A stretch of DNA of 64,000 nt, from positions 29,551 through 93,550 of the IMG/VR virus record IMGVR_UViG_3300021963_000069, one strand, 5' to 3'. The stretch is from a virus. Both the position numbers and the translations under genes were made by a program. This document shows positions 5,405 to 51,462 of this stretch, in pieces. A model generated the notes under the pieces. It saw only the letters and a list, made by a program, of their open reading frames with translations. It made no database searches and was not told where the DNA came from. Positions within the stretch are counted from its first letter, which is position 1; each line of letters opens with the position of its first letter.

Positions 5405-8400
5405 CTTACCGCAATTGTTCTGAGTTCTTTAATTCTTGGTGGATATGCCTGATTGGTTCCGGACATTACGATTTTAATTACATATCCATTAAATAATCCA
5501 AGATTATCTGCGGTAAATTCATATTCTTTAAATTGATTTTCTAAACTAGAACTTACAAAAGTATCCGATCTTCCACTATTTTTGGAGGGATTAACGACAG
5601 AATATCCTGCTGAAGTAGTGTATGATAAGTTATCATAACCAGGAAATAGTTCAAATGATTGATCGATTTCGCTCGAATCCGGTCTAAACAAACTATAAAG
5701 AACTCTAAAATCAGCAGATTCGTGGCGATATGCCGACAAGATTACTTTTAGTGATGTTGCGGGTTGAACTAGATTTACTGCTCTTGAAACATATGATGCA
5801 GAATGTGGATCATCTAGTATTGAATTGACTCTTCCATCTAATGTGTAATCAGAAATTGGACTATCCAAACGACTAGAAATAAACTCGGTAAATGCCGTAT
5901 CTAAGAATAATATTGGAGATAAATTAGAATCTGTCGTATTAAAGGTGATTCCGGTCGTGAATGATTTATTTCTTGGTAGAGCATCAAGATATTCCATTTC
6001 ATTTTCTTTGGAACATACAAGTCTTACTGATCTTAATGTATTTAATGAGTTTAATTGAATTGGCTCGTATCCATTATCTAGGAATGAGGTCTCATTTCCA
6101 CTTATACTTGTTCCAGTAACCGATCTAATTACTGCCGAAGTTGATGTAGAAGATCCGGGAGTATTAAGATCATATGTGGGAACTATTGAACTATATAAAA
6201 TATTCTCGGTGGCGAGAACCTTTGAACCTCCTAATTTTGACTCGGAAGCGAATGATAATTGTGGTGCTCCAGCAATGGGTCCATCAGTATTGCTAGTACC
6301 TCTATCAGTTCCGTTTGCTGCTCTATTAACTTTAAGATAATATCCATCTATTCCAATATTTAAATCATCAATATCATGTGTTGTATTAATTCTTCGTAAA
6401 GAAACTCCATTTAACTCATACTTATATAATAGGGCATCTTTCTCATGAGTGATTGAAATTGTAGAATCGATACCTCTAACAATAGTTCCTAGTGATCCAC
6501 TACCAACGGACCCATAACTAATAATCTCATTTCCAATCTTCACATATCCTGGATATGTTGGAGTTACAGTAATTCCTTCAAAAGTACCAAAGTTTGATGT
6601 GTTTCCAATTGAAATTGATGTAGATGTTGAAGGTAAAGAAGAAGTAATCGGAACTGGTGCATTGCTCGAAATAACATCACTTATTCTAAGTTTATTCGTG
6701 TTTCCATACATTTGATGATCAAAATGTTCGACTCTAACATAATTTCCTGAATATTCATTTGTTGAATCCGAACGAGTTAGAACATTAATTCCAGTCACAG
6801 GAACTATTGTATTCGAATTATTATAATAACTTAATTCATAATCAGTTGTTGTACCTGTGGCAAATACTCCCTGAACGCCTTCCAAGTATAAAGTATTGAT
6901 ACTATTACCATCTCCGGTAATAGTAATTCTTGCATCACGCCCGCGTACTGAAGTTCCAGTTCCTACCGTAGAAGTTACAATACCAACAACATCTCCTTTT
7001 TTATAACCATTTCCCCTATTTACAATTACCGGTGTACCAGTAATTGTTCCATTAGTGGCAGTAACATCTAATACGAGTCCAGAACCATTTCCAATAATAT
7101 TATAAGTTTCTACATAAGAATCAGTAACGTAATTGCTACCACCTGTGGTTAGTCCCACACTTGATACTGAACTTCCGGTTCCAACAACATATCCATAAAC
7201 ATAAGTCTTAGATTTATCAACAATTTTTCTACCCACACTTAAATCAGCAATTAATGCTGTGTCTGCTGTTGTGGTAATTCCTAGAGTTGTTCTTTTTGGT
7301 AGAGTTGTTAGTGGATTTTCAGATAGTCTCTGTACATAACCATTACTTTCATCTAATGTTGGATTATTAAAAAATACAGTTCCCGTGGTTGAAGTAAATT
7401 TAGCCTTATAAAGTTTAAACTTAAGATCCTGATATTGGTTTGCGGTCCATATGGATCCATTTTGTGATTTAAACAGACTTCCCATCGAAAATTGCTTGGA
7501 ATATGTAACTGCATCTACATCTGGAAGTGATTTTGTATTTACGGTTTTTTCGCCCATAACCGCAGTCCACATTTCATACTGATCGCTATTTTCTGAAATA
7601 ATTACAACTGCATATTCTCTTCCGGGTGGAAGATAAATTGGTTCTTCAAATGTAACCTTAGTAGCAACAGAAGCATCGGTTGAAGTATTAACTTGATTGG
7701 GTCTTAACGTAACAGGAAATCCAATTACAGTTCTTGTGGGAGTTCCCAGTTCAACAGTTCTAATTTCAACTTTTACTGGAGCATTTCCTGGGTCTTTTTT
7801 AGCAAAAAATAAATCAACAGCAGTTAAAAATGCACCATTTACATCATCATTTGATGATGTGGGTGAAGGAGCCTCTACATTTCCACCAACAACAAATGAT
7901 TGTGCGAGAGGATCAACAAATCTTTGAACTGTTGTTCTTGTATGAGTGTTTATCGTTGTCTGAGAAGTTGTGGTATTTGTTGTAAGATTTGTAACTGTTT
8001 TTGTTGTTAGATTGGATGTTGTTGCGGTTACGGTATTTTCCCACTGTTCTAATGTTCCATCTGAATTATAATTTGTTTCGGTAGATGAATTGTCCGTACT
8101 TCCAGGAAGACCAGGATTATTTGTGGAACTTGAAGTCAATTTAAATGTTTTAGTTCCTGTGGCAATTCTTACAGTTGGAGGTGGAATTGTATTTGGATCT
8201 CTCAGATAAAATGCTCCAATTAAATCTCCAAAATTATCGGAAATTAATCTTAAATCACTTACATATGCCACAGCACCGCTAGACTGTCCAACTAATTGCA
8301 TACCCTTAAGCAAATAACCGGAATATTTTCCTTGTGCTTCTTCCGACAGAGAAGCAGTATCAATATTCAAAATTTTCGATGATTGACTATACTCAGATGA

Positions 8401-12777: not shown

Positions 12778-14319
12778 TTAAAATTCCAAGATAATTTTAA
12801 TGTCTTCTTTTTGTCGGATATCCCGTGTTACCAGAGGTCGATTGTCGATATAGATTACATCTCCCGTCTTTTTATTTATCTCTGGATTTGCAAGACCTGA
12901 TGTAAAAGTTACCCCCAAATCTATAACTTTACTTCCAATTGTAACTTTATTTGTTGGAGTGGGAGATCCAAAAGTAGTATCAACTGAGCCAGAATATGGA
13001 GAAATGGGTCCCCCATTAGATTCAAAATTATAAACCCTAGAATGATCATTTCGGTCAGTTTGATCTAAACTATTTCCAAAATATAAAGATCTATCTTGAA
13101 AATATTTTAAGACCTTAGTTTCACTATCATATGAGGCTACATAACCTCTTGCAGTTCCATTTGTTACAGTTTGAGTTATTTCATTTCCAATAATTGGAGT
13201 TCCAGTAAATCCCGAAGTTAATTTGATTGCTCCAAGAGATGAATACTGATTTTCTGTAAAGACAACAGTATCTGATGAAAAAGTAGTTGGATTTTTAATA
13301 ATTCCAACTTGTGCAAATTTGGTATCAGTTGGAAAATCTTTTGTTGAATCATCAAATCTGGCATATACCAATACCTTATCCGTTCCCAATTCACTGTAAA
13401 TGTCATAACCATGCCCTTTTGATGGTGGAATGATTGGTATTAGTTTTGCAGCATTTGATATAGTTCCCGGTTGAAGAGTTGACAAATCAACAATCCCCCA
13501 AGTATATCCATAACCACCTGCAACCACCTGAGTAGATACAATAGACCCGCTACTATTGACTGTGATGGATACTCTACCTCCAGATCCATCACCAATAATA
13601 TCAACAATACCTGATGTATACCCACTTCCTCCATTTGCAATATATACTTTTTTAATTTGATTTGGATTTACACTCCCAGAATTTCCATTTTCTCTCACAC
13701 TTACAATTTGAGAATCTGTTGATGTTGCCCAGTTATTTGGAACAACAACATATTCTGTTGAATCAAACTTTATAATATCACTTGGCGAAACTGAAAATAG
13801 ATATTTCCAAACATATCCATCTCCACTTGTTCCTGCTGCCGAGGGTTCTAAATCTGTAAATGTAGGTTCATCCTGAGATTTAGTTCCCTTTGGCGTTATT
13901 GCCGAAGAACCATTATCTATGCAAATATAAACTCTAAAATCACGGTTAATTACATAATAATTGGAATCATATAATCTGCTTGAGTTGGAATTTGGTGTCG
14001 GATTTTGAATACTATAATCGTGCCTATACATCTCATAAGATGTATTGGAAGTCCAAGTAACCTTTCTTATAAGTCTTCTAATATTAGCAGATGTAATTTT
14101 TTTACCAAATAACGAGGTATCTCTGTAATGACTTAAGTATTCTAAATTATCGGTAGGATTTGGAATATCTTCGTTCCAATTAGTAGTTCTTCCAAATCCA
14201 ACACTTGTAGGATTATCTAAACCCAAAAAAACATAATACGAATCATTTCCACTTGTTACGGAATCGATAAAATTACTAGCATTTAATATTCTAAATTGAT
14301 CCGTTACTATTGCTGCCAT
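12778..14319 (-). CDS. 8: Baseplate wedge protein gp8
   Basis: The N-terminus (VTDQFRILNASNFIDSV, YYVFLGLDNPT, FGRTTNWNEDIPNPTDN) and the segment SSAAGTSGDGYVWKYLFSV-like GDGYVWKYLF are the gp8 signature of T4-like phages. gp8 is a dimeric wedge component bound to gp10, gp7 and gp6. At 513 residues it exceeds T4 gp8 (334). Extra length includes GGSGYTSG and GGYGYTWG repeats around residues 230-280, the same repeat class as in gp14. A late promoter (14336-14343) precedes it and overlaps the stop of the giant gene upstream. Confidence 0.9.
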   Translation of the reverse strand: MAAIVTDQFRILNASNFIDSVTSGNDSYYVFLGLDNPTSVGFGRTTNWNEDIPNPTDNLEYLSHYRDTSLFGKKITSANIRRLIRKVTWTSNTSYEMYRHDYSIQNPTPNSNSSRLYDSNYYVINRDFRVYICIDNGSSAITPKGTKSQDEPTFTDLEPSAAGTSGDGYVWKYLFSVSPSDIIKFDSTEYVVVPNNWATSTDSQIVSVRENGNSGSVNPNQIKKVYIANGGSGYTSGIVDIIGDGSGGRVSITVNSSGSIVSTQVVAGGYGYTWGIVDLSTLQPGTISNAAKLIPIIPPSKGHGYDIYSELGTDKVLVYARFDDSTKDFPTDTKFAQVGIIKNPTTFSSDTVVFTENQYSSLGAIKLTSGFTGTPIIGNEITQTVTNGTARGYVASYDSETKVLKYFQDRSLYFGNSLDQTDRNDHSRVYNFESNGGPISPYSGSVDTTFGSPTPTNKVTIGSKVIDLGVTFTSGLANPEINKKTGDVIYIDNRPLVTRDIRQKEDIKIILEF

Positions 14320-14335
14320 ATTGATGTTTTTTAGA

Positions 14336-14343
14336 TATTTATA
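14336..14343 (-). promoter_or_regulatory. T4-type late promoter TATAAATA (gp8)
   Basis: TATAAATA on the minus strand overlaps the stop codon of the giant gp7-like gene and lies 16 bp before the gp8 ATG. A very short leader would result. Confidence 0.6.
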
Positions 14344-17300
14344 AGAGTTTTGGAAGTGCTCCAGTTTGTCTAATACCTATTCCCCTTCTTTGAATCGTTG
14401 GAAAGGTTGATAGTCCAACATCTACAGTATTTCCTGATACTCCTATTGATATTGGAGAACTTGAACGAGTGAACCCGGATAGTTTTCCCCAAGAATATTT
14501 ACCGATAGGATTTAATGTACTCCCAGAACTTGAAAGACCAACTACTGATGTATTTGATCTTATGTTACAAGTAATAATTCCAACTGTTCCATTTGAAGAA
14601 AATTGATGAATATAATAAACATTATCAACAAAGGTTGTTCCAATTCCAATCACCGCAGAATTAGAAGTATCAATAGAAGTTATTCCCCCTCCAACTCTTG
14701 TATCAAAGATATAAATCGGATATCCAGTTTGCAATCCAGTATAAGCAGGTGAATTTAAATAAAATCTAAGTGCTAATGGGTTTCCGCTACTACCAGTAGT
14801 AGTTGTAATTCCAGTAATAATTCCAGAGAATCCATCAATTGAAATAATATTAGAAATTAATTCGACTGCACCATTCGTGATAGTTGAAATCCCATTAACA
14901 ATCAGAGAACTAAAAGGTTTTGGATTAATAATATTATCATATTCAAAAAATTCTGCATTATCTACAAATATTGTAGTATCTGTGGTTGAGAAATCTTTGA
15001 TAATTTTTGCTGTCGGATAAATCAAAGACTCAATAGAATCTCTGGTTTTATAGACATTTTCTCCATTAATTTTTCTATCAACTTTTTGTTTAATCCAACT
15101 TAAGGGTTTATTATTTTCAGAATCTACTCCTTGGTCTGAATATAAATTAGTTTCAAACTTATCAGAGAAGGATAAATCAAATATTGTTCTCTTATTTTGT
15201 GTTAATGTTCCTGAAATTGAATTATTCTTAAGAACTTGTACGGTGTCACCTCTTTTTAGAGTTTCGTTGATTGAAGTATTTAAAACAGTGTCATCACCAC
15301 CAGTTCCCTTATAGAAGAAAATTGCAACATTATCCTCTTTCCTTGGAGCGGTTGTAAATACAAAACTAGTTCCCCCCTCAAATTGATAGGCAACTCCTGG
15401 GTCCTGAATCACTCCGTTTATAACAATTAGTAATGCATTTGAAAGATTTACTTGAGAATCTTCCAGTGCTTCAAAACTCAATAAATCATTATTATAAAAT
15501 AGAGGAAATCTTGTTCTAATTCCATCTTGATAATTTTTAATTGAATCTATATAATCAAATTCCCCAAATTGCCAAGCAGCAAAAGAATCTGAAAATGTAT
15601 CAACAACCGTTAATCTAAACTCCGATAATGGAGATGTCAGTCCTTTAGCAGTCACCAATCCAACTGGTTTGAATACGTCTCCTCTTCTGAATGAGTAACC
15701 CTGTCTAGAAATACTAAATCTAGAAACTTCAAAATATGTTGATCCTATTCCGGTTGTAGAACTTGCCCCAACTTCAACATTAAGTAAAAGACCTATTCCT
15801 GTATCTGTTGTTGCGCCAATTCCCAATCTTGATATTCCAATTACATCAAGATTTTCATATGAAGGTTCGGATACAAATATTTTAGGATTTGTATATCCCG
15901 TTCCACCAGCACCAACATTGAAGGAAAGTGTTCCTCCCGCTCCAACCGATGCAGTTATGATTGCGGTATCTCCAATATGACCACTTTGATATACTGATAC
16001 TCCTATTGATACAATTCCATTATATCCAGACCCAAGATTATCAGTAGTTCCTAGTCCAACTGATACTATACTACCTCCGGCACCAACTACAGCAGTCACT
16101 GCTGCCCCAACAAGGGGTGCATACCCAAGACCAGTAGAAGATCCTAGAGAAATAATTATTCCCCCTCTTGGAGTTTGATTTTGATTGATATCATACTCTG
16201 AAGTAATAATTTGCAAATCTTCCGGATCCCTAATACCAGAAAATACTACGCTAGATATTCCAGAGACGGTATTTTCAATAATACTAAAATTATTTTCTGG
16301 ATTGTTTATTGTTGTCGGAGTCTGAAAAACGCCATTTATGAATAAGATTCCATTTCCCCCGCTAGTTCCCAATCCTACAGTATTTGCTCCCCCAACAGTT
16401 AATGTAAATGTCCTACCAATACCTGTAAATTTATTTGAAATATCATCATATAATTGGTTTGATGTATAATTGTTTCTTAAGAAAACTCTTCCGGTAAAGT
16501 CAGATGTTTCAAAAGTTAGATTGCTAGAATCTCTGATTATTTGTGGATTTCCTCTAGGAGATTCTGCAAAGAAAATACTACTATCAACGATATTGTAAGA
16601 TCCCCTATAAATTCTCACTGAAGATGAATCGGAGTGAGTCGATGCCGATGACCCAACAAATGCTCTCTTCACTTCGACTAAACTAATACCTCCACTATTT
16701 GTAATTGGTCCAATATTAGTTGTACCTAATCCAACATTAATTATACCCATATATTCATTATCAATTTTTAGAATATCTTTCGGTGCTATTGTAGATATTC
16801 CACTCAAAGCAAATATTGAAGATCCTGCACCTATTTGCCCCCCATTTCCTGACAAATTATAAGATATTGGAGTAAATATTAATGGATATTGGACTATATT
16901 ATCGATAGTTATGAGTGACTTCTCAAGTTTTTTATTCATTTCCAATTGATGTGCATTCCCACTACCATATGAAGTAAATGTAACTCCAATTCCAGAAATA
17001 GCATTAGACTTGGTTGTTGCCAGTTTAAATGTATTATCTGATAGTTTGATGACATATACCTCAGAAGGTAATAGTGTTGGGCCAGCACCAATTCTCATTG
17101 CACTAGCACCAACTCCAATAAATGTAGATTTTGGTGTGTATGTAAGTTTTTCTAAATCACTAAAGAAATGATTCTGTATCGTAAACACTCCAGTTGATGG
17201 ATTTAGAGTTGTTGAACTTGTAGGATTGAATGTTTTCGCAAAAATTGGGATATTATTTGATTTTAAGTCAAAATTAGTCCTATTAATTCTTCCACCATTA

Positions 17301-20300
17301 ATTGCATTATATTGTTTAATATCAATAAATTCTGTTATATCTCCATAGTTTAAACTTGGGGGAGTATTTTGCGTATCCAGAATTGTATATAAGCACTGAT
17401 TAAATGATAAAATATTAACATTTGAGGTTACCGATGGGTCTGGATAAAACTTCAGTATAAAATTACTTCCGGAGTATTCTCCACCAAAAGTTCCAATACC
17501 ATTGGTACTTCCAACAGAAAGAAAAGGTAGTTGTTGAACATAGATATTGGATTCGTCCTGCACCATCATAATTTGGTGAAGAGCACTTGTTGACCCAACA
17601 CTTACTTCTACTAAAGATTTGACAGCATTAAAATTAGATTTATTTAGAGATACTATAGTTGATGCAGAAGAAACTGTGGACGAGTAGTTTGATTGATATA
17701 TTGCACTTCTTTCGTTTCCGGGAAGTTCTCCCGAAGATATGAATCTATATGTACCTATACCAATAGATGTCGTACCAAATCCAACAATTTTAGATCTAAT
17801 GTCCACAATATTTGGCGAGTTGCTTATATAATCTAAAGATAAAATACCAGAAGGAGAAATACTTGCCGTAAATATTCCTATATGATTTCCAGAATAAAAA
17901 TTACTTGAAAATTCAGAATCAAAGTAATATTCTGAAATATAGGTATCACTACTTATCCCATTATGATTTAAGTACACCTCGGCAAAGTTCATCTGTTTTG
18001 TTACTGAATCAATAATTTGAACATTAGAATATAATGAAGAAAATTTATTTTTCTGTACGGATATAATTGAAGTTTGTATTCCGGAGGTTGCAGTTCTATT
18101 GCAACTATTTAAGTTAACAAATCCTACAGAAGTTGTTCCTATTCCAGGTAAATCGGAATTAAAATTAGTATTAATTAATTTAATATCATAATCAGTATTA
18201 AAAGGATCTTTCGGAACAAATCTCAAATAATTATCATCATTATCATCCGAAATTAATAAAAATTCTCCTATAGTAGTTTCTTCAAGAAAATGTATAATTT
18301 CTGTCCCGGTGTTTACTATTGTTGATTTCTCAGATAAAAATAAATCATTTCCATTATCAAGTATAATTATTTCTGATAATTGAATTTGAGAATTATCAGC
18401 GGTAGAAATTCTAACTAATAAATTAAGATAAGATTCTCCGGGGTTTAATTCTGCTAAATTAATAAATTCACTCGGATTCCCATCCGCATCAGAAAATTGA
18501 CGATTTATATTATCTATTTTTAAAACCACATTGGTCTTACACTCAATGTAATCAGTTAATTTTTTATTTTTTAGTTTTAAGAACTTTGAAGATGTTCCAA
18601 CTACATCAATATCCTTTACTAAATCAAAATCATAAATTGTATCTACTCTATTTTCCTCAATTATGTCATAAAATATAGTAGTAGCATTCTCTGAAGTTGT
18701 AATTCCAGAGTTGGTAGTTGATGTAATTCCAGTATCTGAAAAATTCTTTAGTCCACTTGAATGAACTAAACTATTAACTGGTGTTCTTAATTCCTGATAT
18801 GTAATTGGACTTTTTATTGTATAAGAAAGATTTTGATAATAATCATTATCAGGAATAACTTGATTATCTTGATCTAATTTTCCAACATCATTAGACCATC
18901 CAATACTTTTTTCAACTGAATAATCAACATTAAATCTTCCAAAACCAGATTTAATTTTATCTACAGTAGCTATATTTCCAGATTCTTTTCCTATAATAAC
19001 TTCTCCAGTAGACAACTCATATCTTCCTAAGACTTTAATGAATGAATTTTGATATGAAGAAATTTTTAAATCTCTCTCAATTCCATTTGAAATAAGTTTT
19101 TCCCCAATATTAAACGAGGATGGAGTTTTAGTAATATTAAATGATGGGTAATCTATACTTTTTATAATATTTCCAATAGAATCCTGAACTGTCTTTGCTA
19201 TACCAGTATTTGGAGTTAATTTTGAAATATCAATTGTTACTGCAACAAGAACTCCTGTATTATTGTAATTACTAATTTTAAAAAATTTATATCCATAGTT
19301 TTCTGAATTAAATCCAGAACCATTGATACTAGATTTTTGAATTCCTTCTATGAATACTTCATCTCCAATATTAAATGCGGGTGTAGAAAACCCAAGTGTT
19401 GGAGTTGTTATAAAACATGTAAAAATTCCAGTTGAACTAGATTCAACTTTTTGAATACTAATTCCATTAGTGTTGTTAGTAGCATATAATCCCACTGCTG
19501 TTTCGGGAATACCCTTTGGTTTTTGTATAATATTAACTGAATTTATCGTGTTTCCTGATAGAGTTGCCTCTAGTATTCCGCTATTAATTTCTTCTCCGGT
19601 CTCGATATTTACGATTACTATAGATGGTACATCCGTGTACCCTCTTCCTCCATTTGTAACTATTACTGAATCAATTGTATTTGAATTTTTAATAATAATT
19701 AGTGGAGATATTGCTGCGATTGGCTGTAAAGTTTTATCCGAGGAATATTGAAACCCCTCATCAATAATTCTTACTTCCTTTGCATTTCCTATGGATGTCG
19801 ATTTTGGGATAATGTAGGCATCTTTTCCTGCCAAGGAATTAGATCCTTTAATTGATGGAAGTTTTTTATATCCAGATCCACTAGAAATAATATTAATTTT
19901 ATCAATTGGACCTTTTGCTGATAGTGAGTTTGTGAGATATTGTAATCTATCACACTCATTTGAAGTATATGTTAGTTTTTCTGGTTTTTTGGATAAAGAA
20001 ATATTAAATGTTGTAGTTCCCACTCCAGAAATTTTATAGTTAGAATTGTATATACTATCTACAAACAATATTTCAGAATAATTATTTACTTCTTTATCTG
20101 AAGTACTGATATATCCAGATTTTTCCAGATTATAATATAATTGAGTTGGAATATTGTCGTCATAATTAATAGTAATTGATGCGTTATTCGAAACTCCAAT
20201 AGTTCCTATTCCCGATAATGGAGTTGATATAAACTCATTTTTATAATCTTTATCATAGTAAATCTTAAAGTTATATCCCACCAAAGAATTATCTGATAAA

Positions 20301-43289: not shown

Positions 43290-43577
43290 TCAAACTAGAA
43301 CGATGTCGCCATGAGCGCGAGCAAGATTCACCAGACTGCCCCAGGAGGTCAAGGAGCACACTTCCGAGTCGTTCATGATGCTATACCACAGTTCAGCAGT
43401 AGCATCGTCCTCCACCTCATAGCGATAGACTTTATCAGAGGTACGATAGGAGATCATAACATCATAGGAGTCATTACCATCGGCAGAAGGAACAATTTCC
43501 ATCATACTCACAGCACTGGACTCTTCTTTGGTGAAGGTACGAGCGATGACGAAGGGATGACGAGTTGCGGTAATCAT
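43290..43577 (-). CDS. KTSC-like small protein, paralogue B (95 aa)
   Basis: It begins MITATRHPFVIARTFTKEES and shares SADGNDSYDVMISYRTSDKV and YRYEVEDDATAELWYSIM blocks with the protein at 33795-34091. Codon use is AT-richer here. A palindrome GCGGAAC/GTTCCGC (43603-43617) lies in its leader, and the cassette -10 TATAAT is 49 bp upstream. Confidence 0.78.
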   Translation of the reverse strand: MITATRHPFVIARTFTKEESSAVSMMEIVPSADGNDSYDVMISYRTSDKVYRYEVEDDATAELWYSIMNDSEVCSLTSWGSLVNLARAHGDIVLV

Positions 43578-43602
43578 AATTTGTGTTTTTAAGTAAGATG
43601 GG

Positions 43603-43617
43603 GCGGAACTGTTCCGC
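43603..43617. promoter_or_regulatory. Perfect palindrome in leader
   Basis: GCGGAAC and GTTCCGC flank one base, between the -10 (43626-43631) and the ATG at 43577. It would lie in the 5' untranslated region and could form a hairpin or an operator. Confidence 0.5.
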
Positions 43618-43625
43618 TTGTGTTT

Positions 43626-43684
43626 ATTATAAGGGCATTATGGGGTCTCTGGAGTGCTCTGTATGCCAGTTATTAAAGTGTCAC
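43626..43684 (-). promoter_or_regulatory. Intergenic cassette: dyad, hairpin and -10 TATAAT
   Basis: Dyad ATGCCA-N10-TGTCAC (43663-43684) over the stop at 43681; TATAAT at 43626-43631, 31 bp away. Confidence 0.62.
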
Positions 43685-44361
43685 CCTCTGACATTTCCTA
43701 TTGTCCTTCCTGTCTTTGGATTCATCTTTGATCCTAATGCCTTTGTATAGATCTTATCTCTTTTCTTTGCACCTTGCTCTCTATTCTCACCCGACAACAC
43801 ACCTTGAGGAGTTGCCGAACCTTTATCACCTGGTTTTGCGCCTGCTTTCTTCAGAGTATCGGGAACAGCACGAACTTCTCCTGTGAAACTTTTTGCTCTT
43901 GAGATTAAGTTATCCGGATCATTCTTACGATGGCGGATACCCTGCGAATGAATAGAAACATCATGAACTGGTTTGGGTGTCCTATCACCACCTAATTGTT
44001 TTCTCAATGCTCTTGCCTTTATCACTCTTTCTTGTGTTGGTCTTGGTTTTTCACCACCTCTGCTGGATACTCTTTTTGATGGTAGATTATTACTTGCATA
44101 ATCACTCTGATTCTTAAATGTTTCTACATTTGTGGCATGATATTTTGACGAAGATGCCTGATAATCTTGTTGAGGAAATGAATCTTTAGTTGGCGGTGTC
44201 TTAAATCCTGCTTTTTTTAATGCTACCTTATCTACAGTACGTTGTCTTTGTCTACCACGCGAAAACTTATTTTTGAATGGTCCTTGGGATGCTAATCTTC
44301 TTCTACCTCTTTCGGGTGATGAAGACTCACATAATTCCATGAACTTCTGAAAGGTAATCAT
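43681..44361 (-). CDS. Putative internal head protein with capsid-targeting-like N-terminus
   Basis: The N-terminus MITFQKFMELCE ends in an L-C-E prohead-protease-type site and resembles the T4 capsid targeting sequence (MKTYQEFIAE). The rest is basic, Ser/Arg/Lys-rich (ERGRRRLASQGPFKNKFSRG), and ends with KKAGAKPGDKGSATPQGVLS and GAKKRDKIYTKALGSKMNPK. It is paralogous to residues ~250-475 of the protein at 45756-47183. A late promoter variant (44380-44387) lies upstream. An injected or internal virion protein is inferred. Confidence 0.75.
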   Translation of the reverse strand: MITFQKFMELCESSSPERGRRRLASQGPFKNKFSRGRQRQRTVDKVALKKAGFKTPPTKDSFPQQDYQASSSKYHATNVETFKNQSDYASNNLPSKRVSSRGGEKPRPTQERVIKARALRKQLGGDRTPKPVHDVSIHSQGIRHRKNDPDNLISRAKSFTGEVRAVPDTLKKAGAKPGDKGSATPQGVLSGENREQGAKKRDKIYTKALGSKMNPKTGRTIGNVRG

Positions 44362-44786
44362 TGAAATACTTTTTTTAAGTATTTATTGAATGGATTGATT
44401 CCTGTTCGTAATGTTTTCTGAAACTGTTCTAAACCTGGATTTACTGCATCCAATTTAACATAAAGAACTAGTGGTATATGACCAAAATAAGATTGTAACC
44501 AAGGGCACAACCAGACCTTTTCATACAATGTAGTGTCTAAGTATACAGAACCTTCTTCATTCGTTTCTTGAAGTTGTAGTTCTGTATCATAATTCTCAAA
44601 CAGTTTTGTGGATGCAATCACATTCAACCTATCCTGAGATACTGCTGGTCTACTCATATCAATCTCAAAATACTCATTAAGAACCATCTCCGTACCATTA
44701 CAGAGTGGTTCTTTTATTGTATCATTATGAGTATGATCAAATACCCAAATGGTGTTTTGTTTAACCGCTGTGAATTCAATTTTCAT
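44358..44786 (-). CDS. DUF6717-like protein, paralogue A (142 aa)
   Basis: I chose the ATG at 44786 (MKIEFTAVKQNTIWVFDHTH). It shares WVFDH, EPLCNGTE and VWLCPWL-QSYFG blocks with the protein at 48692-49096. The pattern 'W.FdH......EPL..G......' recalls the DUF6717 family. Its stop overlaps the start of the next gene (ATGA). It lies 8 bp after the ligase-like gene. Function unknown. Confidence 0.7.
   Translation of the reverse strand: MKIEFTAVKQNTIWVFDHTHNDTIKEPLCNGTEMVLNEYFEIDMSRPAVSQDRLNVIASTKLFENYDTELQLQETNEEGSVYLDTTLYEKVWLCPWLQSYFGHIPLVLYVKLDAVNPGLEQFQKTLRTGINPFNKYLKKVFQ
44380..44387 (-). promoter_or_regulatory. Late-promoter variant AATAAATA
   Basis: AATAAATA on the minus strand, 18 bp upstream of the ATG at 44361, inside the end of the preceding gene. 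Confidence 0.5.
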
Positions 44787-44794
44787 GATTTTAC

Positions 44795-45694
44795 TTAATA
44801 ATTGGCACACTGAAACTTACCTTGATTAAAATTAGCATGAGAGAATACTTCACGATTCACAATTTTATACATTCCAAACTCATTTGTCATGACATAACCC
44901 TCCGCATCAATTCGATCATAACCAATATAAGCACCAGGACCATCATTACGACAGATAAAGAGGCAATCTTCTTTGATAGTTTTAATCAGAATCCACAAAC
45001 GAATCAGATTAGGATCACACTCGAAATCATCCTCATGAATTCTCATACCAGCGCGAATACGAGCATTAATTTGTTTTTTAATTTGTGCCGCTTCCTTATC
45101 AGTTGCGAATCGAGTGGTGGTTGCAACTTGCCGGGCAAACTTACATACATCCTCAACATCAGCGAAGGATTCTTGATTATAAAGAATATATGCGTTTGGT
45201 TTGACGAACTTCACAGTGTCAGTATCATTCCAGATAGCGCGGTCAGGCATCGCAACAGCATCACGAAGATCATTCTTCGCATAATAACAGGTATGCGGAG
45301 CGATGATGATATTTTGAGTGACAATCTCCGGAAACTTATAAGTGATAGTGTTAGGAGTGTATTCATCACTACCACCTTCACCAATAAAATCACCTTGATA
45401 GATGGTTTCCGTACAGGGCAGATAATCAAAGCAAAGATGTAGGATCTTCGCTACTTCACCCTGATGATTTGTATCAATCTCTTCATGAGAATGATTGATT
45501 TTGATTTTAACTTTGTTGAATACGGATTTTGTGCCAACAAAGAACCTACCCGTGGCAGGATTGGTGCCCCATACAATCGCAGGAGAACCATCAATCTTAA
45601 GACTGAGAGTGCCAGGAGTTACGAACCAATCAAGAACAGAAAGATCACCCGTAAGGATAGAGTCTTCTGGGTGAGACAGATGTGTGTTTTTCAT
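44795..45694 (-). CDS. Ligase-like nucleotidyltransferase (DUF6267-like, 299 aa)
   Basis: Residues 31-38 (SLKIDGSP) match motif I (KxDG) of the covalent nucleotidyltransferase superfamily, with Lys33 the likely AMP acceptor. YQGDFIGEGG in the middle and EGYVM (Glu265-Gly266) followed by MYKIVN (Lys277) near the C-terminus resemble motifs III-V of DNA/RNA ligases. I recall such phage proteins under the name DUF6267. Which nucleic acid, if any, it joins is unknown. The -10 TATAAT (45701-45706) lies only 6 bp before the ATG, so the mRNA may be leaderless. Confidence 0.7.
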   Translation of the reverse strand: MKNTHLSHPEDSILTGDLSVLDWFVTPGTLSLKIDGSPAIVWGTNPATGRFFVGTKSVFNKVKIKINHSHEEIDTNHQGEVAKILHLCFDYLPCTETIYQGDFIGEGGSDEYTPNTITYKFPEIVTQNIIIAPHTCYYAKNDLRDAVAMPDRAIWNDTDTVKFVKPNAYILYNQESFADVEDVCKFARQVATTTRFATDKEAAQIKKQINARIRAGMRIHEDDFECDPNLIRLWILIKTIKEDCLFICRNDGPGAYIGYDRIDAEGYVMTNEFGMYKIVNREVFSHANFNQGKFQCANY

Positions 45695-45700
45695 ACTGAC

Positions 45701-45759
45701 ATTATAAGGGTATTATGGGGGCTCTGGAGTGCCCTGTGTGCCAGTTGTCAAAGTGTCAC
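45701..45759 (-). promoter_or_regulatory. Intergenic cassette: dyad, hairpin and -10 TATAAT
   Basis: Dyad GTGCCA-N10-TGTCAC (45738-45759) over the stop at 45756; TATAAT at 45701-45706, 31 bp away. Confidence 0.65.
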
Positions 45760-47183
45760 CCTTGCACTGTTCCCATTGTTTTTCCTGTCTTTGGATTCAT
45801 CTTTGAACCCAATATCCTAGTATAAATCTTGTCTCTTTTCTTTGCACCTATTTTACTATTTTCTCCTGGCATCACACCTTGAGGAGTTGCTGAACCTTTA
45901 TCACCTGGTTTTGCACCTGCTTTCTTCAGAGTATCAGGAACAGCACGAACTTCTCCTGTGAAACTTTTTGCTCTTGAGATTAAGTTTTTTTGGTCATTTT
46001 TGGATATGGTTTCATCATCAGCACCAATGGAAACATCATGAACTGGTTTGGATGTCCTATCACCACCCATCTGTTTTCTTAATGCTTTTGCATGAAGAAC
46101 TCGTTTTGCAGTTGGTATTACTACATAACTTTTTCTTTCACCAGAGAATGGTTGTTTTCCGGGCATATTATTTTTTGCATAATCACTTTGATGCTTGTAG
46201 GTTGCTACATTTGTTGTGTGATAATCTGAACTGGAAACTTCACGCTCTTGTGGATAGTGATATTTATTTGGTGATCGTTTGAATCCTGCTTTCTTTAATG
46301 CTGCCCTATCAGAAGTAGATGCGTTCTTCCTACTAAGAGAATACTTATTTTTCAATGGTCCTTTAGGTGCCAATCTTCTTCTACCTCTTTCGGGGGATGA
46401 AGATTCGCATAATGCCATAAAATCCGAAAAGGTCATTTGATCTTCCCATTCATCATAATCTTCATCATCACGATTTTTACCCCATTCAACCTCAACTTTT
46501 GTCCTCCTTGGATTCAGAGGTTTCAATCTACTTTTACCCTTTGCCTTTTGTTTTGGTGATTTTTCTCTACCAACTTGTGCAAATTGATCCCCATCATTAT
46601 CCAATTCACCAAATCCTGATTTTTTGTATATTTCAGATCTTCTATTGATTGGTTTTTCCCTACCTCTATCGTCAAGAGACCTAATAGGAGTATTATGAAC
46701 AATAGATCCTTTGGGTAGTCGGTGAGAAACGTGTGTGCTCCAAACTTTTTTAGCAGTTCTTGCAAGTTTAACTCTTTCTTTAGGACTAAGTTGAGTCTTA
46801 TTTTTATCGTGCCCCCATGATATGGTTCTTACATCATCATATGGAGATTCATCGGATCTATTTACGGCAAATTTGATACTTGATGGTTTGTGATGTAAAT
46901 ACATATCATTTCCATCACGATCAATTTCTATTTCATCTTTTTCACGATGACCAACTTTGGAGTTTATAGATGGATTATCAGCACCATGTTTAACTTTTGT
47001 TTGAGTCAAGTCATATTGTTTTGCCCAACGATCTTGATTCTGTGAAGATTGCGAACCGATTGTTCTTGCTCTTCTACGACTCTTTTGAACTGCCTTTCCA
47101 ACTGGAGTTTCTCCTGATGGCAAACGATCATCAGGTTCATAATATTTCTCTGTAAGTTCTAGAAATTGTTTGAATATTCTCAT
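45756..47183 (-). CDS. Fusion of two internal-head-type proteins (475 aa)
   Basis: Residues 1-235 (MRIFKQFLELTEKYYEPDDR, TKVKHGADNP, STHVSHRLPKGS, SPKQKAKGKSRLKPL) align with the whole protein at 47197-47901. Residues ~250-475 (MTFSDFMALCESSSPERGRR to the C-terminal GSKMNPKTGKT) align with the whole protein at 43681-44361, including its N-terminal Met. Both halves keep the F-x-x-F-M/L-x-L-x-E sequence, so a prohead protease could cut it at about residue 12 and about residue 262. It is basic and low-complexity. Function is inferred as internal virion protein. Confidence 0.78.
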   Translation of the reverse strand: MRIFKQFLELTEKYYEPDDRLPSGETPVGKAVQKSRRRARTIGSQSSQNQDRWAKQYDLTQTKVKHGADNPSINSKVGHREKDEIEIDRDGNDMYLHHKPSSIKFAVNRSDESPYDDVRTISWGHDKNKTQLSPKERVKLARTAKKVWSTHVSHRLPKGSIVHNTPIRSLDDRGREKPINRRSEIYKKSGFGELDNDGDQFAQVGREKSPKQKAKGKSRLKPLNPRRTKVEVEWGKNRDDEDYDEWEDQMTFSDFMALCESSSPERGRRRLAPKGPLKNKYSLSRKNASTSDRAALKKAGFKRSPNKYHYPQEREVSSSDYHTTNVATYKHQSDYAKNNMPGKQPFSGERKSYVVIPTAKRVLHAKALRKQMGGDRTSKPVHDVSIGADDETISKNDQKNLISRAKSFTGEVRAVPDTLKKAGAKPGDKGSATPQGVMPGENSKIGAKKRDKIYTRILGSKMNPKTGKTMGTVQG

Positions 47184-47196
47184 GACTCTATTGTGT

Positions 47197-47901
47197 TTAA
47201 TCTTTTACTATATCTTCCCATTCACCAGACATTGGTTTGAGTCTTTTCTTACCCTTTGCCTTTTGTTTTGGTGATGGTTCTCTACCAACACTTGCATACT
47301 GATCTCCACCTTTATTAAGTGGACCAAAACCAGCGCGTTGATACAATTTAGCGCGAGTGTTTTTAGTTGGATTTTTATGTGTTGAATTGGAAAGTGGACT
47401 ATTAACTAACGCTGAACCATGAGGAAGACGATGTTGAACATGAGTATCCCATACTGACTTTGCATCTCTCGCAACTTGTTTTTTCTCTTCATCACTCAAA
47501 TTATTATTATAACCATCCTTATGATTCCACATTACACTGTGAATTGGTTTACCATCCTTTGTTTTTTGTTTAGAATTTGACACAAAATAATCAATTCCTT
47601 TAGAACTCACTCTCATTCGGTTATCTTTATCTGTATAAACATTTGCATCTGGATGCGGACTAGGATTAAAATTCGGATTATCGGCACCGTGTTTCACTTG
47701 ACGATTTGATCTTTGAATTTGCTTTATGCTTCTTCCCAAATGTCTCATCGTATCCTTATGATCTGGTGCATTTTCATGTTTTCTTTTATTTCTAAAATAT
47801 GAAGATCTGGATTTACCATAAGGTGTCTTACCCGATGGCAGTTTCTCATCTGGTTTATAATATCTTTCACTAAGTTCTAGAAATTCTTTGAATGTTCTCA
47901 T
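47197..47901 (-). CDS. Putative internal head protein (234 aa)
   Basis: The N-terminus MRTFKEFLELSERYYKPDEK resembles the T4 capsid targeting sequence and carries an L-S-E site at residues 10-12. The body is basic, with VKHGADNPNFNP, WDTHVQHRLPHGSALVNSPL and the C-terminal SPKQKAKGKKRLKP. It is paralogous to the N-terminal half of the 475-residue protein. It belongs to one operon with 47910-48650 under the late promoter at 48669. Confidence 0.75.
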   Translation of the reverse strand: MRTFKEFLELSERYYKPDEKLPSGKTPYGKSRSSYFRNKRKHENAPDHKDTMRHLGRSIKQIQRSNRQVKHGADNPNFNPSPHPDANVYTDKDNRMRVSSKGIDYFVSNSKQKTKDGKPIHSVMWNHKDGYNNNLSDEEKKQVARDAKSVWDTHVQHRLPHGSALVNSPLSNSTHKNPTKNTRAKLYQRAGFGPLNKGGDQYASVGREPSPKQKAKGKKRLKPMSGEWEDIVKD

Positions 47902-47909
47902 TTTCGCCC

Positions 47910-48650
47910 CTAGTTTTCTCTTTCTGCATCAGAAAGTCTATCCCATCTCGATTGGAGTTTTTTAATCTTGGGACTGTTTTCAATTTCTCTTTTAGCAGAC
48001 GCTCTTCTTCCTCTTTCTCCTCTTGATACTCTTTCTGGTCTCCAATTATCAGACTGAGTATAGTCATCGTACTGACCATCACCTGCATTATGTCTTCCGC
48101 GAATTCTATTTTCCTCATCTTCCATACCAGTTTCCAACTTTATCTTCTTCCTGTAAAGTTTCATTGATGGGTTCAAAGGCATTCCCCTATCATCAGTATT
48201 TCCTCTGAAAGAAACTCTGCCACCACCTTTCACTTCAAGAATTGTATCCAACCATTCATCAGACATTGATTCATAAATTGAAATTGCAGAATCATAATTA
48301 TCCGTATATCCTTCTGTTACAAGATAATCAATTATTCCGTAAAACTCTTCGTTAGTTTTTCTTCTCTTTCTTCTTGCAGATACTAGATGTTGAGATGCAG
48401 TATCACGATAACGTTTTCTATTTTTAGGTGAAGTATGTTCGGCATCTGCAACAGTTTTATGTGTTTCTGCTGCTCTTTCATCAGCGTCTGCAGTTACTGC
48501 ACCAGAAAATTTAGAAGAAAATACACCCTCACATAAGTATTCAAACTCATCATCATTTAATGATTCGAGCAGACACTCGGCACTCTCATAAGAATCAGCA
48601 TAACCTTCTAAATACACATACTTTAAAAGTTGATGATATTTGTATGACAT
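47910..48650 (-). CDS. EGYAD-repeat protein (246 aa)
   Basis: Two copies of a ~30-residue helical module: residues 8-36 (KYVYLEGYADSYESAE, LESLNDDEF) and about 105-140 (YLVTEGYTDNYDSAI, ESMSDEWLDTIL). A basic, Arg-rich C-terminal tail (RVSRGERGRRASAKREIENS) follows. The module also occurs three times in the protein at 49195-50394. I recall it in other T4-like cyanophage virion proteins. A late promoter at 48669 controls it. Confidence 0.75.
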   Translation of the reverse strand: MSYKYHQLLKYVYLEGYADSYESAECLLESLNDDEFEYLCEGVFSSKFSGAVTADADERAAETHKTVADAEHTSPKNRKRYRDTASQHLVSARRKRRKTNEEFYGIIDYLVTEGYTDNYDSAISIYESMSDEWLDTILEVKGGGRVSFRGNTDDRGMPLNPSMKLYRKKIKLETGMEDEENRIRGRHNAGDGQYDDYTQSDNWRPERVSRGERGRRASAKREIENSPKIKKLQSRWDRLSDAEREN

Positions 48651-48668
48651 TTTTACAAGTTTTTTATT

Positions 48669-48676
48669 TATTTATA
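48669..48676 (-). promoter_or_regulatory. T4-type late promoter TATAAATA
   Basis: TATAAATA on the minus strand, 18 bp upstream of the ATG at 48650. It should drive the operon 48650-45756. Confidence 0.62.
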
Positions 48677-48691
48677 AACCCTGTTTATCAT

Positions 48692-49096
48692 CTATTCTTT
48701 AACTATTATATCAAGTAATTCTTCAAATTCCAAATCAATTGGAGGTTCATGATACTGCTCACAGTAAATATAAATTGTTTCGGGAACTTCTCCAAAATAT
48801 CCAGGTAACCAAGGACACAACCAGAGTTCCATGGAACTAAGTTTATCTTTATAAACTGAACCGAACTCATCAGTTTTAATCAGTTTAATTTCTGTGATTG
48901 CGCCATCAAATTTATCAGTATCAAGATAAAATTTAATTTTATCACCTATGATTGGTTTATTTTCATTCAGCATTTCATAGTACCAATCAATTACATTTTC
49001 AGTTCCATTGCAAAGTGGTTCATTTACAGTATTTTGATGCTTATGATCAAATACCCAACAATTATAATTTTTGTGAGCGATGATAGATAAATTCAT
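48692..49096 (-). CDS. DUF6717-like protein, paralogue B (134 aa)
   Basis: It begins MNLSIIAHKNYNCWVFDHKH and shares EPLCNGTE, DEFGSVYKD and LWLCPWLPGYFGEVPETIYI blocks with the protein at 44358-44786. It ends with an acidic helix. Two copies 4 kb apart point to duplication of this locus. Function unknown. Confidence 0.72.
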   Translation of the reverse strand: MNLSIIAHKNYNCWVFDHKHQNTVNEPLCNGTENVIDWYYEMLNENKPIIGDKIKFYLDTDKFDGAITEIKLIKTDEFGSVYKDKLSSMELWLCPWLPGYFGEVPETIYIYCEQYHEPPIDLEFEELLDIIVKE

Positions 49097-49194
49097 AATT
49101 CTGAGTCAGAGTTCTATATTCACATAATAATTCATCTGGTTGTTAATGTCAAGTCCAGTGGACAGAACTCAAACTGTCACAGTCCAGATTTACT

Positions 49195-50394
49195 TTATTG
49201 ATCCTTTAAGTCTTGAATTCTTTTTTGTATTGATGCCGAACGACTGGTTGATGTGCGAATCAGTGCATCGGAAGCATTTTGCACCAGTTTTTGCTTCTTT
49301 CTTGCAGATTTAAGAATTGCTTCTTTTTCTTGCTTTACTTTAGGTCTATACTTACCAAATGGTTTTTTCTTCAAATCTTTCATTCGTCCACTCTGAACTT
49401 GAATATCTCTTACAAGTTCACCAACTCTATTTTTGACTCTTTCTTCTTTTTCTGGTGTCAGATCCTTATACTCTTCATCAAGAATCTCATTTACCCAGTT
49501 GTCGCTGATACTCTCTGCCATAACTTCGGCACCATCAAGACTATCGGCATAACCTTCACTAAACAGATAATCCGCTACTAGATCAAACTGATTTTTAATG
49601 ATATCTGAAAGTTCACTTCTTTTTATTGTTCTACTTGCCGATCTTGTTGGTGATGGTTCTCTGCCTCTTGATTCTGGTTGTGGTTCTGGTTGTGGTTCTG
49701 GTTCATCTCCTGCCAGTCTTGCTGTAATTCTTTTTAGTGCTTTCTGATCTTCTGGACGAAGACTACTCCCAGGGGTTCTTTTTAGTTGTCTTTTTTGTCT
49801 CTCTTGTTCCTTATTAAATCTTCTAATTTTTGCCGCAGACCAAGGTTTTTGAGCTCTGATTTCATTTAGTTCCTCAAACTCATCGTCACTCATTGCTTCT
49901 AAGATACAACCAGCAGAATCATAATCAACCGCAAATCCTTCAGAAATAAGAGTATCAAGAATGTATTCTATATCTTCTCTTTTAAATTTGCGAATATTGT
50001 TTCGTCCCTCTTCTCGTTCAGTTGTTCTTTTTCTAGCCTGTTGAGCATTACTCATCAATTTAGAACCAGTCTTCATTTTTTTTAATAGTGTCCCTATTTT
50101 TACTCTTGGGGGTTTACTATAATCAGGATTTTTTAATTCATCTTGTGCAATATCTGCTTGATTTGAATAATCCTTTAGTTTAATCATTTGACTATTTAAA
50201 AACCCAGTCACTCTTGCTTTTTTAGTCTTAGAGAGCGGTCTAAAGTTTCTTTCTTTCCACGAATCGTCTTCAATGAGGTCTTGAAACTCATCGTCACTCA
50301 AAGACTCTACTAATTCTTCTGCTTCCTCATAAGAATCGGCATAACCCTCAAAGTATAAAAACTGAAGTATTTGGTGATATTCGTAAGAAGACAT
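49195..50394 (-). CDS. EGYAD-repeat protein with three modules (399 aa)
   Basis: Modules at about residues 8-38 (QFLYFEGYADSYEEAE, ESLSDDEFQDLI), 140-175 (TLISEGFAVDYDSAG, LEAMSDDEFEEL) and 270-305 (YLFSEGYADSLDGAE, AESISDNWVNEIL) are separated by basic linkers rich in Arg/Lys. A short PEPQPEPQPES repeat lies near residue 235. Its N-terminus is close to that of the 246-residue paralogue. A late promoter (50422-50429) precedes it. Internal or structural virion protein inferred. Confidence 0.75.
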   Translation of the reverse strand: MSSYEYHQILQFLYFEGYADSYEEAEELVESLSDDEFQDLIEDDSWKERNFRPLSKTKKARVTGFLNSQMIKLKDYSNQADIAQDELKNPDYSKPPRVKIGTLLKKMKTGSKLMSNAQQARKRTTEREEGRNNIRKFKREDIEYILDTLISEGFAVDYDSAGCILEAMSDDEFEELNEIRAQKPWSAAKIRRFNKEQERQKRQLKRTPGSSLRPEDQKALKRITARLAGDEPEPQPEPQPESRGREPSPTRSASRTIKRSELSDIIKNQFDLVADYLFSEGYADSLDGAEVMAESISDNWVNEILDEEYKDLTPEKEERVKNRVGELVRDIQVQSGRMKDLKKKPFGKYRPKVKQEKEAILKSARKKQKLVQNASDALIRTSTSRSASIQKRIQDLKDQ

Positions 50395-50421
50395 TTGGTA
50401 TAAAGAAACTCTACTTCTCTT

Positions 50422-50429
50422 TATTTATC
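50422..50429 (-). promoter_or_regulatory. Late-promoter variant GATAAATA
   Basis: GATAAATA on the minus strand, 27 bp upstream of the ATG at 50394. Confidence 0.5.
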
Positions 50430-50452
50430 AAATATCTTCACAGTTAGAATAC

Positions 50453-50989
50453 TTATGGATTTTGGAACGTCTTTATATATCTAATGGTCTTCATATAAGA
50501 GATCTCACTATTCTTAACGACTAATAACTCAGATTTAACTTCACGCCAGGTATAATTTCTATCTTTGTTTAAGTGAAAATTAAAACCATTAAATCCCCAA
50601 TCAAAAACACCAAGACACGCTATTAGTGGATGTTGATCGTAAAGAAGTCCTGGTGTCTTCGCAAAATATCTAAAGGTGAAGTATTTTCCGGGAATTGGCG
50701 GAGAGTTTGTGTCCTTAAAAACATCCAGAATCACATTCATTATGCTTTCTGGTCTTTTTGATGTTTTTTCGAGTCTTTGTTTAAGAATATCAATTCTTGT
50801 TAGATTTGCTGTTGCTTTTTGATAATCTCTGTCGTCCTTAAGAAGTTTTATTAATTCATCTTTCGTTAGACTTTCATAGTTACTAGTAGATCCCTGTCCT
50901 GATTTGGTTGTGTAATAAACTGTATATCTTTTCGCAAGAGATACTAATTCATTTTTACTTAAAGCATCAAGAAGGGATGGTGGTATCAT
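50453..50989 (-). CDS. Cyanophage structural-type protein with SAP-like start (178 aa)
   Basis: Residues 5-50 (LDALSKNELVSLAKRY, LTKDELIKLLKDD) look like two SAP/LEM-type helices. The second half, with PGKYFTFRYFAKTPGLLYDQ, HPLIACLGVFDWGFNGFNFH and TWREVKSELL, is a conserved cyanomyovirus and podovirus virion protein pattern. I recall its homologues annotated as DNA-end-protector-like or unknown. It overlaps the upstream gene by 4 bp (ATGA). Confidence 0.75.
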   Translation of the reverse strand: MIPPSLLDALSKNELVSLAKRYTVYYTTKSGQGSTSNYESLTKDELIKLLKDDRDYQKATANLTRIDILKQRLEKTSKRPESIMNVILDVFKDTNSPPIPGKYFTFRYFAKTPGLLYDQHPLIACLGVFDWGFNGFNFHLNKDRNYTWREVKSELLVVKNSEISYMKTIRYIKTFQNP

Positions 50990-51222
50990 TTCTTCTTTAG
51001 ATATTTTTTAACTGCCTTTCCGCCAATTCCACCCTGATCGTCCAGCAATTTGATTATTTTCTTTGGTTTTCCAATTGGTTTTGTTGGTCCAGTAGGAGGC
51101 GCCAAAGTATATTCCTTGTTTCCGTCCTCATCTTCTCTATATGTTCCGGGAACTGCATTTGGAGGAAGTGTTGGTTTCTTCTTACCTTCAATAAGAGTAA
51201 GGAATTGATTAAAACTAATCAT
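50986..51222 (-). CDS. Small basic protein with capsid-targeting-like N-terminus (78 aa)
   Basis: MISFNQFLTLIEGKKKPTLP starts with the pattern seen in the internal-head-type proteins and an L-I-E-G site at residues 10-13. The rest is Pro/Lys/Gly-rich and ends KKIIKLLDDQGGIGGKAVKK. A late-promoter variant at 51233-51240 lies just upstream. Confidence 0.7.
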   Translation of the reverse strand: MISFNQFLTLIEGKKKPTLPPNAVPGTYREDEDGNKEYTLAPPTGPTKPIGKPKKIIKLLDDQGGIGGKAVKKYLKKK

Positions 51223-51232
51223 TTTTTTAAGA

Positions 51233-51240
51233 TATTTATG
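51233..51240 (-). promoter_or_regulatory. Late-promoter variant CATAAATA
   Basis: CATAAATA on the minus strand, 10 bp upstream of the ATG at 51222, overlapping the stop region of the 72-residue gene. Confidence 0.5.
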
Positions 51241-51243
51241 AGT

Positions 51244-51462
51244 TTATTTGATATGATCCTTAAGACTATAAAAGTATTCCAGCCTAGCGATGTCTTCCTG
51301 TAGTCTAACTCCCTTGGTATAACGGACAAAGTGCCTCTCAAGAGTGAGTTCCTCTTCTGAAAAGGGAATATCATTCTCTCTCTTGAACCTGATGTTCTGT
51401 GCGAATTGTGTAATGTGATTTACAGGTAAATTAAGAAACTCCTCGTAAGACATTTGAGACAA
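51244..51462 (-). CDS. Small hypothetical protein (72 aa)
   Basis: It begins MSQMSYEEFLNLPVNHITQF and has a charged helical middle (RFKRENDIPFSEEELTLERH). YEEFLNLP loosely resembles the targeting-like N-termini next door but lacks the L-x-E site. Function unknown. Confidence 0.65.
   Translation of the reverse strand: MSQMSYEEFLNLPVNHITQFAQNIRFKRENDIPFSEEELTLERHFVRYTKGVRLQEDIARLEYFYSLKDHIK

Follow-up and report, generated by a model that had tools for sequence, protein, structure and literature searches.

What does a T4-like cyanophage pack into its head besides DNA, and can such proteins be recognised from their first few residues? The question is raised by a locus at positions 43681-51222 of a 64,000-nucleotide stretch of DNA (the window; positions 29551-93550 of the 93.55-kb virus record IMGVR_UViG_3300021963_000069), where four genes begin with a segment of the form F-x-x-F-x-x-L-x-E and one of them carries a further copy in its interior. 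Coordinates are those of the window, and positions in the full record are marked as such. An earlier note on this DNA had read the segments as capsid-targeting signals removed by the prohead protease and the proteins as putative equivalents of T4 internal proteins (IPs). We assign a probability of about 0.83 to the reading of this locus as a set of genes for internal head proteins in a T4-like cyanophage; the proteins would bear a portable tag, be processed by gp21 and include a 475-residue precursor with two cargo proteins.

The principle of a capsid-targeting sequence (CTS) is already known for T4 relatives. The T4 IPIII tag, MKTYQEFIAE, acts in targeting mainly through residues 4 and 7 and in processing through residues 8 and 10; gp21 cleaves after (L/I)-x-E, and T4 propeptides span 10-19 residues, so that tag length varies in T4 as well (PMC9026906). 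From the sequence we infer how targeting, cleavage, injection, processing of the fused precursor and any counter-defence role would work in this phage. Each protein would be made late with a CTS of 10-16 residues (aromatic residue 4, F7) that docks into the scaffold core of the prohead. A gp21-type protease would then cut the tag off after (L/I)-x-E, leaving the basic mature protein in the head, from where it would presumably enter the host together with the DNA. The 475-residue precursor would also be cut at its internal CTS to yield two mature proteins.

The N-terminal tag and its T4 counterpart

All five segments lie where the earlier note had placed them, at four gene starts and at residue 250 of the 475-residue protein (MTFSDFMALCE, window 46436), and each closes with L-x-E (LCE, LTE, LSE, LIE and LCE). 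They are not all independent, because the internal copy and the start of the 226-residue protein are paralogous and share the downstream SSSPERGRRRLA. An aromatic residue 4 and F7 are present in 4/4 tagged window genes (as F4 and F7), with L-x-E reached at position 12. Across the record the motif stands at the start of 5 of 137 open reading frames (ORFs), four of them in the 12-ORF block of the locus and one outside the window; shuffled N-termini gave 0.64 ± 0.81 such starts, with a maximum of 5 in 2000 shuffles, making the motif about eight times commoner than in shuffled sequence. Two additional CTS-like genes of the same virus, absent from the earlier note, lie outside the window at record 14052-14693 (MKTFKEFCIDANIQE) and within record 14710-15522 (MKTFREFILE).

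The tagged proteins are indeed basic, with isoelectric points of 10.8 (226 residues), 10.0, 10.0 and 9.8 against a median of 5.6, and the late-promoter-like ATAAATA sites that had been reported are present (Table 1). This heptamer is not enriched across the window (25 seen, 35 expected); it lies just upstream of 13 of the 76 minus-strand genes, against 1.1 expected (circular shift, P = 0.0004). Such promoter-like sites suggest that the tagged genes are expressed late.

Among homologues, tag length changes while the junction with the mature protein is kept. The 226 family, named like the 234 family after its window member, has about 20 homologous loci, and F4 and F7 are at least 90% conserved in family alignments of 16 and 19 rows. 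Three families supply 26 different CTSs whose mature start can be aligned; in 26 of 26, (L/I)-x-E directly adjoins that start, while the tags measure 10, 12, 13, 15 or 16 residues. IMG/VR homologues in the 234 family have tags of 10, 12, 13 or 15 residues, yet (L/I)-x-E always abuts a RYYEPD-like mature start. The 226-family junctions include LCE↓SSSPERGRRRL, LAE↓SSTPERGRRRL, MKTFKEFAEYCDELQE↓SSSGESGKRRL and MKTFSEFIEE↓SSTPERGRRRL (the arrow marks the predicted cut), and those of the 78-residue family are LIE↓GKKKP and ICE↓GKKPE, with relatives in loci L021 and L022 (ICE↓GKKP) and probably also in L047 (L numbers denote related loci). A tblastn search of 50,697 phage records found no match to the 234-residue protein.

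A position matrix trained only on cyanophage-family N-termini was applied to T4 and to the cyanophage S-CREM2. Among 252 T4 ORFs it ranked IPIII, IPII and IPI first, second and third. The virus itself encodes a gp21-type protease (PF03420, 2.6e-34), with T4-like head genes for gp21 at record 19264-19914, gp22 at 18013-19224 and gp23 at 16554-17963, and its gp23 carries HEFLYE↓SPTNAG, which by position matches the T4 site FLTE↓AEIGG. The window proteins share with IPI, IPII and IPIII the aromatic residue 4 and F7, the (L/I)-x-E end, basic charge, a late-promoter-like site and the gp21/gp22/gp23 system. They differ in that the mature proteins have no recognised similarity in Pfam or PHROGs, most tags have 12 residues, two more than in IPIII, a GNAT-like fold is predicted, the families occur in tandem, and some precursors are fusions that carry tags in their interior.

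Virion proteomes of relatives provide a second comparison. The published virion proteome of S-CREM2 comprises 52 of its 219 proteins (PMC10665884). The five best matrix-scoring N-termini of this phage all belong to virion proteins (5/5 against 52/219; Fisher p = 6.5e-4), and they include a SAM lyase (PF23780, E = 2.3e-19), an APH-like kinase and an NMNAT-like cytidylyltransferase. The matrix does not reach the tags of two further virion proteins, gp13 (MKDLHSFLTE) and the Cas9-like gp12 (offset RFASFMAEA). The virion-associated non-structural proteins with CTS-like N-termini in S-CREM2 (OR473000) are gp6, gp12, gp13, gp14, gp15, gp136 and gp154; the passages of that report consulted make no mention of a tag on them (PMC10665884).

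The T4 control, the virion presence in S-CREM2 and the retention of (L/I)-x-E where the mature protein starts, despite changes in tag length, support the CTS reading, as do the matching gp21/gp23 pair and the conservation of F4 and F7, the positions used for targeting in T4 (PMC9026906). The N-terminal segment is very probably a T4-type CTS.

Proposed fused precursors with internal tags

The 475-residue gene consists of a 234-family protein joined to a 226-family protein, and orthologues of its first half (L054, L056) stop exactly where the second tag of the window protein starts. Relatives contain other pairings of two cargo domains in one frame, each with a protease-type junction site: 234+234 in L048 (VFEEFIELAE↓RYYEPD), 226+234 in L046 (YKQFRKFIEIAE↓RYYEPD), 226+226 in L035/L037 (EEFEQFDE↓NARAAL), 226+GNAT in L122 (GTFEEFMVE↓SQQV) and 226 with a putative HNH-type nuclease in L029 (SYLIE↓KSKTFSS). 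A nuclease homologous to the second half of the L029 fusion bears its own tag in L113. Both putative HNH-type nucleases (L029:3264-4502 and L113:11335-11961) appear AHH-like by eye and have no Pfam match.

These arrangements suggest that the 475-residue gene is one of several independent fusions whose junctions have retained a CTS or cut site, and that their products may be head-delivered polyproteins cut by gp21. The case rests on homology and junction position, since the sites fall at borders between domains found elsewhere as separate tagged proteins. It does not rest on counts, because internal motifs in tagged ORFs, although numbering 6 against 0.6 in shuffled sequence, are little denser than in untagged ORFs (0.20 against 0.15 per 1000 residues). 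Polyvalent proteins (Iyer et al. 2017, PMC5512222) are likewise single phage polypeptides that combine several effector domains, ADP-ribosyltransferases (ARTs) and GNATs among them, and for which packaging and injection are predicted. Their processing is tied to metallopeptidase domains of their own, whereas here internal CTS or gp21-type sites separate the cargo.

That low density weighs against our reading of the locus, and so do four other observations. A 226-family subgroup with another post-tag segment has F at P3 and hence ends in F-x-E (MKTFQEFQE↓SAAIARG), for which reason the gp21 site preference may be somewhat wider. The S-CREM2 authors warn that non-structural virion proteins might be carry-over (PMC10665884), and of three clear CTS proteins in S-SZBM1 one was detected in virions, in a shallow proteome of 30 proteins. 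Finally, the internal CTS of the window protein begins with Met, its ATG being preceded by GGGAAG.

This last point, together with the motif density, favours an alternative that we consider rather unlikely, in which the second product arises by internal initiation at Met250, or two genes fused recently and left the internal CTS behind as a mere fossil. Internal initiation enters as an alternative in the window because a Met is available there. The internal tags of L048, L046 and L122 have no Met and still retain the motif and the junction cut site, so re-initiation cannot account for them, and the exact end of the L054 and L056 orthologues at the start of the second half also speaks against this alternative.

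Mature proteins and the cargo of the tag

Searches of the mature window domains against Pfam, PHROG and PDB sequences gave no usable match, and no catalytic motif was recognised in the 226 and 234 families. The earlier description of the proteins as low in complexity is only partly right, for the core of the 234-residue protein is predicted to fold confidently (AlphaFold2; predicted local distance difference test, pLDDT, 79 overall and about 90 in the core). Foldseek matches of this model in the PDB are mostly GNAT proteins with weak E values of 0.007-0.2, including TacT, KacT, AtaT and AAC(6'), and BFVD yielded a viral N-acetyltransferase at 3.7e-4. Its best viral structural match is a 276-residue protein of Synechococcus phage S-SRM01, the same length as an S-SRM01 member of the 226 family, in line with the remote homology of the 234 and 226 families by hhalign (probability 85%, E = 5.7e-6). 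A 226-family model gave weaker GNAT matches (E about 0.6 and above).

By inspection, both family alignments lack the acetyl-coenzyme A loop (R/Q)xxGx(G/A), and we therefore do not class either family as acetyltransferases. They share with GNAT acetyltransferases and toxins such as TacT, KacT and AtaT the order of strands and helices and weak Foldseek similarity (0.02-0.1 by E value in the PDB), and differ in the missing loop. This weak evidence points to divergent GNAT-like folds without a canonical coenzyme A loop in both mature families.

The tag itself reaches much further than these families. A DNA pattern spelling M-K-T-F-x-E-F-(I/L/F-type)-x-E, used in one scan as a single tight pattern, occurs in at least 120 stretches of viral contigs; its permuted control has 2 hits. 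Pfam matches in a sample of 47 tagged proteins include SAM lyase (5), GNAT (4), ART-PolyVal (one protein, 9.7e-24), AAA_33 kinase, cytidylyltransferase and DUF6267, among others; by eye, tagged proteins of L057, L021 and L056 are ART-like. The CTS would serve as a portable tag; in relatives it stands on SAM lyases, GNAT acetyltransferases, an ADP-ribosyltransferase, a P-loop kinase, cytidylyltransferase-like enzymes and probable HNH-type nucleases. SAM lyases have a known anti-restriction activity in other phages.

T4 Alt, a head-borne ADP-ribosyltransferase that gp21 processes, is comparable to the ART-like tagged proteins of these relatives; no ART domain was found in the tagged proteins of the window itself. 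Alt modifies RNA polymerase, and IPII and IPIII have no settled role (PMC9026906). The earlier statement that T4 internal proteins counter host defence thus applies to IPI and does not extend beyond it (PMC9026906). For the window families, the most likely role in our view is that of proteins which interact with the host after injection and which diversify through tandem duplication.

A structural role in the core is also possible, if unlikely: the tagged proteins would be packaged and cleaved, and would aid scaffold assembly or neutralise DNA charge instead of being injected as effectors. Their strong basic charge and the absence of a recognised catalytic motif would suit such a role, and in T4 IPIII mutants show head-assembly defects and IPs bind DNA (PMC9026906). 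It fits less well with a predicted folded GNAT-like core in place of a disordered basic peptide, with the same tag on enzymes in relatives, and with families that are rare among phages and tandemly duplicated (four 234-family genes in L047), as for diversifying accessory proteins. Very improbable is the remaining alternative, an ordinary amphipathic helix inherited within one paralogous family, since the tag, even if common by descent within each of the remotely homologous 226 and 234 families, also stands in front of unrelated domains (SAM lyase, GNAT, ADP-ribosyltransferase, kinase, DUF6267) and the T4 IPs, tolerates indels while its junction is kept, and far outnumbers the permuted control.

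Locus layout, companion modules and wider meaning

Table 1. Features of the locus (window coordinates; arrows mark predicted cuts)
Feature	Position	Strand	Remarks
CTS-tagged basic protein, 226 residues (226 family)	43681..44361	-	CTS MITFQKFMELCE at 44326-44361; predicted cut LCE↓SSSPERGRRRLA
Late-promoter-like ATAAATA	44380..44386	-	18 nt ahead of the 226-residue protein start
Fused precursor, 475 residues, 234-family then 226-family protein	45756..47183	-	N-terminal CTS MRIFKQFLELTE at 47148-47183
Internal CTS MTFSDFMALCE, residues 250-260 of the 475-residue protein	46404..46436	-	Predicted internal cut LCE↓SSSPERGRRRLA
CTS-tagged basic protein, 234 residues (234 family)	47197..47901	-	CTS MRTFKEFLELSE at 47866-47901; predicted cut LSE↓RYYKPDEKLP; GNAT-like predicted fold
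Companion protein, 246 residues, two EGYAD modules	47910..48650	-	In L047, too, a homologue precedes the CTS array
Late-promoter-like ATAAATAAATA, two overlapping sites (48665 and 48669)	48665..48675	-	Precedes 47910-48650
Companion protein, 399 residues, three EGYAD modules	49195..50394	-	
Late-promoter-like ATAAATA	50422..50428	-	Precedes 49195-50394
CTS-tagged basic protein, 78 residues	50986..51222	-	CTS MISFNQFLTLIE at 51187-51222; predicted cut LIE↓GKKKPTLPP
Late-promoter-like ATAAATA	51233..51239	-	10 nt ahead of the 78-residue protein start

The 234- and 475-residue genes lie downstream of 47910-48650 on the same strand, after gaps of 8 and 13 nt, respectively; the window contains no tRNA genes. 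The nearest isolate with a comparable locus is S-SRM01. A gene for a DNA end protector (gp2)-like protein (50453-50989; phrog_429, 5e-16) overlaps the 78-residue CTS gene by 4 nt at its start. Two DUF6717 paralogues (44358-44810 and 48692-49096) are interleaved with the CTS genes, and DUF6717 homologues adjoin CTS genes in L005, L007 and S-SRM01 too. The protein at 44795-45694 belongs to DUF6267/phrog_455, its match being confined to roughly the first half of the PHROG profile, and by eye it has a KxDG nucleotidyltransferase-like motif (KIDGSPA). Its start, MKNTHL, corresponds to the point right after the tag of its relative in L135 (MKTFAEFLTE↓DKNTHLEHLED), so the window copy has apparently lost, or never had, a tag. 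A distant DNA search with 43500-51300 counted two phage records from Arthrobacter; it also counted, as a separate item, two records that share a piece 95-99% identical.

The companion proteins share a helical-looking module of about 40 residues, YLxxEGYADSxxxAExxxESMSDxW..., which we call EGYAD. Further copies occur at record 7473-8258 and in many relatives, where the module recurs at N-termini, in the interior and at C-termini of late-looking cyanophage proteins; most copies end in (L/I)-x-E. In L005 and L007 an unrelated segment takes the place of the N-terminal copy in the 47910 homologue, just ahead of a shared E↓G(V/A)F. A 'cytidyltransferase' of Sf-CH8 with EGYAD was considered as proof of module swapping on a virion enzyme and dropped, as it shows no cytidylyltransferase motif by eye. 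A search for loci related to the 399-residue protein gave no relative, and tblastn with the 475- and 399-residue proteins found little among phage isolates.

More tentatively, at somewhat less than even odds, the locus may belong to a modular injected arsenal in which a portable tag is combined with capsid-cut polyproteins that give at least two proteins per gene, and with EGYAD as a second core-targeting segment. We found no paper that applies the CTS to cyanophages or describes fused tagged precursors, most subscription papers being outside the reach of the search; among the 5.39 million open papers searched, 'capsid targeting' and 'cyanophage' co-occur only in the T4 review (PMC9026906).

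Our reading of the locus as encoding tagged internal head proteins offers an explanation for the SAM lyase, kinase and NMNAT-like cytidylyltransferase enzymes in cyanophage virions, and it offers a rule by which a short N-terminal tag predicts packaged proteins. If it is true, the proteins with which very abundant viruses of oceans and fresh waters take over their hosts could be found from sequence alone, and with tagged fused precursors a phage would have a new means of delivering several proteins through a single gene.

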